A DNA stretch of 64,000 bases from Microbacterium sp. Marseille-Q6648 (GTDB lineage Bacteria > Actinomycetota > Actinomycetes > Actinomycetales > Microbacteriaceae): the NCBI RefSeq assembly GCF_943181415.1, contig NZ_CALPBZ010000001.1, positions 868,001 to 932,000 on the forward strand, in the 5' to 3' direction. Under the pieces are notes generated by a model. The model had not been told where the DNA came from, did no database searches, and saw only the letters and a program-made list of their open reading frames with translations. The position numbers and the translations under genes were made by a program. Shown here in pieces: positions 60,028 to 63,207 of this stretch; the stretch's first letter is position 1, and each line of letters starts with the position of its first letter.

Positions 60028-60047
60028 TCTCGCTCTACGTTGTGGAT

Positions 60048-60359
60048 GTGGGAAAACTCGTTTATGGCAGCGATTCTCGATCGCTCGACATCGACGACCG
60101 CGTCCTGGCGCACCTCCGCGTGGTGTTCATGAACAAGCTGCGGCGACTCGAGCCCTTCATGTTCCACCTTCCCGATCCCCCCGGTGTGCGGTCCCTGTGG
60201 GTCCATCCCGCGGTGCCGATCGTCTTCCACTTCTACGGATCTCGAGCCCCACGGCTCAACCGGGCGTGGGTCGACGCGCTCATGCTCGAAGCGGCGGGAC
60301 CCCACGGACTGCGGATCGTCGCCGAGCCCGACGAGGAGAACGCCGCAGCCTCCGGGTGA
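60048..60359 (+). CDS. DUF7882-like small protein
   Basis: A 103-residue protein starting VGKLVYGSDSRSLDIDDRVL and containing NKLRRLEPFMFHLPDP, SLWVHPAVPIVFHFYGSRA and LNRAWVDALMLEAAGPHGLR. This pattern (MGKLxYG, DRVLAHL, KLRRxExF, WLHPxIPxxF, NRxWVDALM) belongs to a small Microbacteriaceae family annotated DUF7882, sometimes described as similar to a part of ATP-dependent DNA ligase. Function unknown. The GTG at 60048 fits the family start; the GTG at 60042 is in frame as well. Its ribosome binding site is poor. Confidence 0.7.
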   Translation: MGKLVYGSDSRSLDIDDRVLAHLRVVFMNKLRRLEPFMFHLPDPPGVRSLWVHPAVPIVFHFYGSRAPRLNRAWVDALMLEAAGPHGLRIVAEPDEENAAASG

Positions 60360-60839: not shown

Positions 60840-61021
60840 GCGCCACTCCCCTCGACTGCCGAAAGTGTAGGTCGCCCCCTGACTTTCGACCTGCCCCTTG
60901 CACTCACATGTCCCGTCGCGCTACGCGGCAGGGCGTGCCCCGATACCGGATTGTCGACGCCGTCGTCTACGCTCAGCAGTGCGGTCATGCAGTACGCCGC
61001 GTTTCGACCCGAGGAGCGCCC

Positions 61022-61837
61022 ATGACCGCAGCCGTGCAGGCGTCGGACGCGCTCCGACGCAACAACGTCACCGTCGGCGGCGACCCATACGGGCGCGTCA
61101 TGGTCTTCGCGCACGGCTTCGGCTGCGACCAGGCTGTCTGGCGTGCGGTGGCGCCCGCGTTCGCACCCGACCATCGAACGGTGCTCTTCGATCATGTCGG
61201 AGCCGGCGGATCCGACCTGAGCGCCTACCACCCCGGCCGGTACGACTCCCTCGACGGCTATGCCGGGGATCTGCTCGAGATCCTCGAAGCCATCGACGCC
61301 ACGGACGTCGTCTTGGTCGGGCACTCGGTGAGTGCGATGGTGGGGGTGCTCGCGGCGAACCGCGATCCGTCGCGATTCGGCGCCCTGGTGCTCGTGACCC
61401 CCTCGCCCCGATATGTCAACGATGCAGAGTACGACGGCGGCTTCGAGCTCGACGACATCTCGAGCCTGCTCGACTCGCTGGACGCGAACTACCTCGGCTG
61501 GTCGCGGGAGTTCGCCCCGGTGATCATGGGGACCCCCGAACGCCCGGACCTGAGCGATGCGCTGACGGCGAGCTTCTGCCGCGTCGATCCGGCGATCGCG
61601 AGGCACTTCGCGCGCGTGACCTTCCTCTCCGACAATCGGGATGACCTGCGCGCGGTCTCGGTGCCGACCCTCGTGCTGCAGTGCAGCAGCGACGCACTCG
61701 CCCCCCGCACGGTCGGCGACTACGTCCACGCCGCGATCCCCGGCAGTCGACTGGCTGTTCTGGAAGCCACCGGGCACGTCCCCATCCTCTCCGCGCCCGA
61801 CGCCGTCATCGCCGAGATCCGGGAGTTCCTGGCGTGA
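61022..61837 (+). CDS. RsbQ-like alpha/beta hydrolase
   Basis: A 271-residue hydrolase that closely follows Bacillus RsbQ along its length: VFAHGFGCDQAVWRAVAPAF, LFDHVGAGGSDLSAY, VGHSVSAMVGVLAA, PSPRYVNDAEYDGGFELDDI, SFCRVDPAIARHFARVTFLS, DNRDDLRAVSVPTLVLQCSS and ATGHVPILSAP. The catalytic triad is Ser102, Asp224 and His252. RsbQ works with the PAS-domain phosphatase RsbP in energy-stress signalling and is thought to act on a small hydrophobic compound. Here the partner is a PAS-GAF-GGDEF protein whose GTG overlaps the stop (GTGA). ATG start with GAGGAG upstream. Strigolactone and karrikin receptors belong to the same family. Confidence 0.9.
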   Translation: MTAAVQASDALRRNNVTVGGDPYGRVMVFAHGFGCDQAVWRAVAPAFAPDHRTVLFDHVGAGGSDLSAYHPGRYDSLDGYAGDLLEILEAIDATDVVLVGHSVSAMVGVLAANRDPSRFGALVLVTPSPRYVNDAEYDGGFELDDISSLLDSLDANYLGWSREFAPVIMGTPERPDLSDALTASFCRVDPAIARHFARVTFLSDNRDDLRAVSVPTLVLQCSSDALAPRTVGDYVHAAIPGSRLAVLEATGHVPILSAPDAVIAEIREFLA

Positions 61838-63207
61838 GCGCGGACAGCTGGTTCGATCTCGCCCCGTGCGGGCTCGTGGCGACATCGCCCGACGGCACCG
61901 TCCTCGAGGCGAATTCGACGTTCCTCGAGTGGACGGGGCAGTCGCGGGAGATCATCGGCACGCCCTTCGCGGACCTTCTCGATCCCGGGAGCCGCCTGTT
62001 CTACGAGACGCGGCACGTGCAGTCGCTGCACCTGCAGGGGAGGGTCGACGAGGCAGCACTGACGATCCGCCGGACCGACGGCCACGGCATCCCGGTCCTG
62101 GTCAACTCGCTGCGGGACGCCGCGACCGGCGTCGTGCGGACGGCGGTCTTCAACGCGACCGAGCGGATCCGGTACGAGCGCGACCTTGTTCACGCTCGAC
62201 GAGCGGCCGAGTCCTCCGAGGCCCGCGTGCGCGTGCTGCAGGAGGTCTCGAGCACTTTCGGGCTGACAGCGAGCGCGGAGGACGTCGCGCACGCCTTTGC
62301 CGACGTCGCGCGAACCGCCTTCAGCGCGCGGGAGGCGGCGGTGCTCCTGTGGGACGACGAGGGCGATCTCGTGCTGGCGGGCGGCGTGAACCCGCTCGCG
62401 GGTCGCGTGCCGCCGGTCGTCACGCTCCGCAACACGCCACGGGTCGTCGCCGTCACCGAGAAGGCCGCGCAGACGCAGTTCCCCGAGCTCGCCGCCGCCA
62501 TGCGCGAGACCCGACTCGAGGCGCTGAGCGTCACGCCGCTCTTGGACGAGAGCGACCGGCTGGGCGTGCTGGTGTGCTTCTTCGGCCGCGACCGCGAGTT
62601 CGACGACCAGTTCTACGACCTGCAGCAGGCGCTGGGCCGGCAGGCGTCGCAGACGCTCGTCCGTCTGCGCTACCAGCGCCGTCTCGCCTTCCTCGCCCTG
62701 CACGACCAGCTCACTGGCGTCGGCAACCGTCAATTGCTCGAGCAGAGTCTCGACGACGCGATCCGCACCGCGTGGAACGAGCGCACCCCGCTGGCGGTCC
62801 TCTTCCTCGACGTGGACGACTTCAAGGGCATCAACGACCGGTTCGGCCACGCGGCCGGCGACATGGTCCTCACCGAGCTCGCCGCGCGCCTCATGCACGG
62901 CGTGCGCGCGGGGGACGTCGTCGGTCGCATCGGCGGGGACGAATTCGTCGCCATCTGCGCGGATGCCGACCAGGAAGCCGCCGAGGCCATCGCCGAGCGC
63001 ATCCTCGCGATGACCCAGGACCCGATCACCGTGGACTCCGGGCTGATCTCACCGTCGGTGAGCGTCGGCGTTTCGCTCTATCGTCCGCAGGAGGACCCCC
63101 GCCCCGACCCCGAGCACCTTCTCGTGCGCGCGGACGGCGCGATGTACGAGTCGAAGGGCGCCGGCAAGAACCGCGTCACGATCGAGCGGCTCGTCGACCT
63201 GCTCTGA
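61834..63207 (+). CDS. PAS-GAF-GGDEF diguanylate cyclase
   Basis: A 457-residue signalling protein. Residues 5-112 are a PAS domain (WFDLAPCGLVATSPDGTVLE, NSTFLEWTG), about 113-140 a helical linker, about 140-280 a GAF domain (LQEVSSTFGLTASAEDVAHA), and 285-455 a GGDEF domain. The active site GGDEF is intact at 367-371, and the product-inhibition I-site RxxD is present as Arg358-Asp361, five residues before it. It should therefore make c-di-GMP with feedback control. No membrane segment is visible. GTG start coupled to the RsbQ-like gene by a 4-nt overlap, which suggests that RsbQ chemistry feeds its PAS domain. Confidence 0.92.
   Translation: MSADSWFDLAPCGLVATSPDGTVLEANSTFLEWTGQSREIIGTPFADLLDPGSRLFYETRHVQSLHLQGRVDEAALTIRRTDGHGIPVLVNSLRDAATGVVRTAVFNATERIRYERDLVHARRAAESSEARVRVLQEVSSTFGLTASAEDVAHAFADVARTAFSAREAAVLLWDDEGDLVLAGGVNPLAGRVPPVVTLRNTPRVVAVTEKAAQTQFPELAAAMRETRLEALSVTPLLDESDRLGVLVCFFGRDREFDDQFYDLQQALGRQASQTLVRLRYQRRLAFLALHDQLTGVGNRQLLEQSLDDAIRTAWNERTPLAVLFLDVDDFKGINDRFGHAAGDMVLTELAARLMHGVRAGDVVGRIGGDEFVAICADADQEAAEAIAERILAMTQDPITVDSGLISPSVSVGVSLYRPQEDPRPDPEHLLVRADGAMYESKGAGKNRVTIERLVDLL

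Follow-up and report, generated by a model that had tools for sequence, protein, structure and literature searches.

An RsbQ-family hydrolase gene overlapping a PAS-GAF-GGDEF gene in Microbacterium: a conserved member of a published module type, with an arginine at a proposed contact site

What does an RsbQ-type hydrolase do directly in front of a gene for a predicted diguanylate cyclase? The question is raised by two genes close to the end of the window, i.e., the stretch of 64,000 nt from Microbacterium sp. Marseille-Q6648 to which all coordinates refer. In Bacillus subtilis, RsbQ is the partner of RsbP, a PAS protein encoded in the same gene order; RsbP acts in the SigB pathway through a PP2C phosphatase, in contrast to the GGDEF domain found here. 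We consider it likely that the two genes encode a sensor made of two proteins, of the RsbQ-PAS type known from the literature, in which RsbQ controls the cyclase via the PAS domain. The features of the locus are as follows.

61011..61016, + strand: GAGGAG, from the sequence a likely ribosome-binding site for RsbQ
61022..61837, + strand: RsbQ-family alpha/beta hydrolase, 271 aa (structure match, alignment)
61325..61327, + strand: codon of catalytic Ser102 (invariant in the alignment with 1wom; Ser in 118/118 RsbQs)
61691..61693, + strand: codon of catalytic Asp224 (invariant in the alignment with 1wom; 118/118 RsbQs)
61775..61777, + strand: codon of catalytic His252 (invariant in the alignment with 1wom; 118/118 RsbQs)
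61834..61837, + strand: GTGA, in which the RsbQ stop (TGA) overlaps the cyclase start (GTG), read from the sequence
61834..63207, + strand: 457-aa protein with PAS, GAF and GGDEF domains (Pfam), a predicted diguanylate cyclase
61852..62163, + strand: RsbP-type PAS domain, residues about 7-110 (Pfam PAS_9, 3.8e-08, best stretch 12-103; groups with RsbQ-paired PAS domains)
61987..62022, + strand: F-alpha segment GSRLFYETRHVQ, residues 52-63, counterpart of RsbP's RsbQ-contact helix (F56 = F55, R60 = Y59)
62269..62658, + strand: GAF domain, residues 146-275 (Pfam GAF, 2.4e-06, match at 149-275)
62695..63174, + strand: GGDEF domain, residues 288-447 (Pfam, 5.9e-42)
62905..62916, + strand: RAGD (RxxD), residues 358-361, five residues before the GGDEF motif
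62932..62946, + strand: GGDEF active-site signature, residues 367-371, read from the sequence

The hydrolase had been annotated as a clear RsbQ relative with an intact Ser102-Asp224-His252 triad, and both statements hold. Its residues 9-270 match B. subtilis RsbQ (1wom) at 2.7e-86, which is the top PDB match, and the three residues are invariant across a 12-row alignment that includes 1wom. By its triad and its best match, the protein is a member of the RsbQ family. The second PDB match is a bacterial relative (3qvm, Olei00960; 4.2e-64), followed by the plant receptors KAI2 and D14 at 4.9e-57 and weaker. The initial annotation was also right to place the hydrolase in the strigolactone/karrikin receptor family, the likeness seen here being one of structure match. 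The plant receptors keep a triad as well. They differ from the window pair in acting through F-box proteins (MAX2; PMC3531792). Among the best 25 of 31 NCBIfam matches, the hydrolase hits other hydrolase models only, all far below their cut-offs. It is the single RsbQ of the host genome at E<=1e-40.

The 4-nt overlap with the downstream gene was found as annotated, with respect to coordinates, frames and the GTGA itself. It is also conserved, in that the downstream gene could start at the same 4-nt overlap with the RsbQ stop in 17/18 loci of the genus (G079 being the exception) and in 70/104 PAS-bearing loci of the wider survey described below (best 80 of 581 confirmed loci plus 26 phylum loci). 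Within the downstream protein, PAS, GAF and GGDEF are each matched by a Pfam model above its cut-off, with the PAS_9 match in N-terminal position (residues 12-103 of 457). The annotated active-looking GGDEF with a kept RxxD is borne out by the sequence, since the GGDEF signature, the metal-site aspartates and RAGD, which we take to be the RxxD inhibitory site, are all intact. Judged by these residues, the 457-aa protein is predicted to be an active diguanylate cyclase.

The arrangement as such is not novel. Nadezhdin, Brody and Price (2011, PMC3183031) described 45 PAS proteins of the RsbP type whose genes directly follow that of RsbQ; the output domain is PP2C, a histidine kinase or a diguanylate cyclase. 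Cyclase outputs are reported there for both Gram-positive and Gram-negative bacteria, the histidine-kinase output for Gram-negative bacteria, and a coiled coil between PAS and output for 36/45 proteins. The module proposed by the initial annotation is thus in substance the one put forward in PMC3183031, reached anew from the sequence alone. Like the published modules with cyclase output, the window pair has RsbQ directly upstream, an N-terminal RsbP-type PAS, a GGDEF output and no DIT motif; where the PAS domain ends, NATERIRYE is found by eye in place of DIT. What sets the pair apart is an Arg corresponding to RsbP Tyr59 and a GAF domain between PAS and GGDEF, "GAF" being a term absent from the main text of PMC3183031. 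RsbP is described there as PAS, coiled coil and phosphatase, again in contrast to the window cyclase. Among the titles and abstracts listed in our literature searches, we found no experiment on a cyclase-linked RsbQ pair.

We therefore asked how far the pairing extends. In 149 Microbacterium genomes, RsbQ (E<=1e-40) is present in 18, the window's genome included, i.e., the distribution is patchy, and in 18/18 of these a cyclase homologue lies directly downstream. The reverse search with the cyclase gives 41 matches in the genus (E<=1e-40), which divide into the 18 paired proteins, 22 without a partner and 1 next to what remains of an RsbQ gene. The F-alpha segment is present in the 18 paired PAS domains as well as in the one beside the remnant, while it is absent from the 20 unpaired proteins examined (of 22). 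The remnant locus (L019, G130:C29:78500-82500, about 1400-2925) has kept the cyclase and the 4-nt overlap (here ATGA), but RsbQ is reduced to about 16 RsbQ-like N-terminal residues followed by codons without visible likeness (by eye).

Of six window neighbours sought in 17 loci of the genus, each spanning about 9-19 kb, none is regularly found beside the pair. Relatives of a 105-aa ORF (window 60042-60359) lie near the module in 3/17 loci and ABC-transporter matches in 5/17 (three at about 35% identity, the other two weak), such that a conserved larger operon is rejected within loci of this size. In two genus loci, L025 (G017) and L026 (G095), the gene immediately upstream of RsbQ, in opposite orientation, encodes another PAS-GAF-GGDEF homologue, which lacks F-alpha; in G095, the match to it is interrupted by a single in-frame stop.

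Across the phylum, RsbQ was detected at E<=1e-40 in 24/396 genomes (27 matches), and the 26 matches outside the window's genome were taken into a wider survey. Named genomes contributed a further 80 loci, the best of 581 confirmed ones, which gives 106 in total, where the two sets may share genomes. An RsbP-type PAS is encoded downstream in 104/106, which is to be read as family likeness and not as an independent test, since sequences from this very set went into the PAS profile. Two RsbQs lack an RsbP-type PAS downstream: L186, and the distant L187 (37%), whose gene shares a 4-nt overlap with that of a GGDEF-motif protein of 587 aa. The Ser-Asp-His triad is kept in all 118 RsbQs that were aligned.

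For the 104 PAS-bearing loci (best 80 of 581 plus 26), the outputs are 80 phosphatases, 15 cyclases and 6 kinases, with 3 (L094, L119, L130) running off contig ends. Our home-made output profiles had assigned 80 PP2C, 15 GGDEF and 5 kinase domains and left 4 proteins unassigned; a Pfam scan of 19 proteins from the wider survey and the genus gave the same outputs and identified L142 as the sixth kinase. Two of the RsbQ pairs with histidine-kinase output, L185 (G256) and L181 (G499), belong to the window's phylum, and G256 has a cyclase-linked pair (L184) in addition to its kinase-linked one. In Salinibacterium, two RsbQ-PAS-GAF-GGDEF pairs (L099, L104) have degenerate GGDEF motifs (TNTNEF, LREDEF), from which the output may have lost its cyclase activity in some relatives, i.e., be inactive or repurposed.

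A GAF domain between PAS and output is also found in the phosphatase-linked L090 and L174, so the PAS-GAF-output order is not peculiar to cyclases. When linker and GAF of the 24-member clade introduced below are used as a profile, unpaired cyclases score up to 116 bits (L019 aside), about as high as the PAS-GAF proteins of RsbQ pairs, and neither group is favoured as the source of the GAF domain. Among RsbQ-paired proteins scored with this profile, values reach 107 bits for L119, the output of which is cut off, and 103 bits for the phosphatase-linked L090.

The pairing is no accident of one genome, which is ruled out by the adjacency in 18/18 genus and 104/106 wider loci. These counts also represent the co-occurrence in related genomes on which the initial annotation was to be judged, and the window pair is a real, conserved member of the published RsbQ-PAS module type. 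One may still suppose a metabolic role for the hydrolase, with no tie to the cyclase other than their common operon. G130, which keeps the cyclase without a whole RsbQ, fits this idea, as does the outcome of the literature search, in whose titles and abstracts no functional test of a cyclase-linked pair appeared. Nevertheless, we regard it as highly improbable: RsbQ stays adjacent to the PAS gene across three output types, the F-alpha segment is tied to RsbQ pairing, and the pair is kept while none of the six window neighbours regularly accompanies it in the 17 genus loci.

To relate the different outputs, we computed an RsbQ tree of 122 sequences (quick method, SH-aLRT support only, midpoint root). 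The window's RsbQ falls into a cyclase-linked clade of 24 rows (support 100) that lies among phosphatase-linked RsbQs. Its named members are from Microbacterium, Agromyces, Naasia, Cryobacterium, Lacisediminihabitans, Salinibacterium, an unnamed Microbacteriaceae bacterium and one unclassified actinobacterium. The same 24 form one group in the tree of the PAS domains (support 91), which is based on few columns. A second cyclase-linked lineage comprises five Microbacterium RsbQs on a long branch (43-49% identical to the window's), and L184 is a further cyclase-linked case. With many forks of the tree being weak, the simplest reading would be that the phosphatase came first and the cyclase later.

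The PAS domains also score in line with RsbQ pairing. Among the 45 matches listed for a PAS profile of the 24-member clade, 17/18 phosphatase-linked PAS domains score 127-149 bits (L174: 103), the five of the second lineage 55-81 bits, and the 20 unpaired cyclases below 30 bits or not at all. RsbQ and PAS identities are correlated (Spearman 0.60 for 24 pairs, 0.74 for 80; 0/500 shuffles as high), as common descent would also predict.

For RsbP, nine class residues of the PAS domain were tested in B. subtilis, where changes of L48, F55, Y59 and E72 are null; of these, F55A and Y59A also break RsbQ binding in yeast two-hybrid assays, F55A in addition in a pull-down (PMC3183031). We took the RsbP positions from this work and matched them to the window's PAS by motif and spacing. 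On that basis, C12, L49, F56, E73 and P87 correspond to the kept class residues C10, L48, F55, E72 and P86, and V15, R54 and Y57 are often seen in paired PAS sequences. R60, on the other hand, departs from the aromatic residue at RsbP Y59. Given Arg60 at this site and Gln63 at that of Pro62, the window's contact surface differs from the studied one.

Among the matches listed, the Tyr59 site holds Arg in 24/24 PAS domains of the clade versus His in 80/80 phosphatase-linked ones; His is also found in 5/6 kinase-linked domains and Gln in 4/5 of the second cyclase lineage. The Phe55 site is Phe in 23/24 clade members, while the Pro62 site is Pro in 7/24 and Gln in 13, among them the window's protein. 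As all 24 belong to a single lineage, their Arg may represent one event rather than 24. On the side of RsbQ, the majority residue of the clade differs from that of the phosphatase set in columns 36, 73, 133 and 155. The window's RsbQ is of the clade type at 133 and 155 and of the phosphatase type at 36 (Asp) and 73 (Arg), by which a strict co-variation of these positions with PAS position 60 is rejected. Together, the residues suggest that the hydrolase-PAS interface may have been re-tuned in the clade. A more specific scenario, i.e., that this nearly-all-Microbacteriaceae clade switched once from PP2C to cyclase, with Arg for His at the Tyr59 site and most RsbQs altered at 36/73/133/155 marking a re-tuned interface that possibly serves another ligand or sign, strikes us as rather unlikely. 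The 24-member cyclase clade with Arg at this site is a modest and possibly new observation; likewise, the GAF-containing cyclase architecture and the clade-wide contact-site residue may be new points with respect to PMC3183031.

How could such a sensor work? The initial annotation had RsbQ read by the PAS domain, with GGDEF in place of the phosphatase. This reading gains from the conserved adjacency, from the F-alpha segment tied to pairing and from the cyclase clade among phosphatase-linked RsbQs, and as a signalling link it stays a suggestion of these sequence comparisons. Translational coupling would ensure that both proteins are made together. RsbQ, with its catalytic triad, would bind and perhaps convert a small molecule and contact the F-alpha helix of the N-terminal PAS in the cyclase dimer. 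The resulting change would travel via the helical linker and the GAF domain and turn c-di-GMP synthesis by GGDEF up or down, an output that could be product-inhibited via the RxxD site. Both the direct RsbQ-PAS contact and the need of the triad are inferred by analogy to B. subtilis RsbQ-RsbP, for which the published work favours direct protein contact, with or without product delivery, and reports triad changes to be null (PMC3183031).

Two forms of this sensor correspond to the two models put forward in PMC3183031. For the receptor form (Model 2), the PAS-bound hydrolase is itself the sensor and signals the occupancy of its pocket, with hydrolysis at most resetting it. This form has, in our view, close to an even chance. 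After RsbQ, and bar one bacterial relative, the nearest solved structures are plant hydrolase receptors, and the clearest clade-specific PAS change sits at the proposed contact site; direct contact is what PMC3183031 reports for RsbQ-RsbP. A receptor needs no catalysis by itself, yet the triad is kept in every aligned RsbQ. The same conservation speaks for the product-delivery form (Model 1), where a product of RsbQ is handed to the PAS pocket as the true sensor, and so do the null triad changes in B. subtilis. Against it, RsbP-PAS had no known ligand or cofactor as of 2011 (PMC3183031), and we see product delivery as possible with the balance tilted against it.

In the host, c-di-GMP turnover is plausible, given three GGDEF matches and one EAL match in its genome; no PilZ match was found there. 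Another GGDEF gene lies close to the one EAL match, on opposite strands (G000:C2:371317-373207). Four matches to SpoIIE-type phosphatases lie elsewhere in the genome.

In plants, the relatives of RsbQ act as hormone receptors. The signal of the bacterial module was still an open question in 2011 (PMC3183031). The clade-wide replacement of His by Arg points to where partner specificity may lie and, if the re-tuning scenario is true, the clade would be a natural experiment for decoding how the RsbQ-PAS module signals. A cyclase-linked pair such as that of the window would offer, with c-di-GMP, a simple readout for finding the bacterial ligand of the module.
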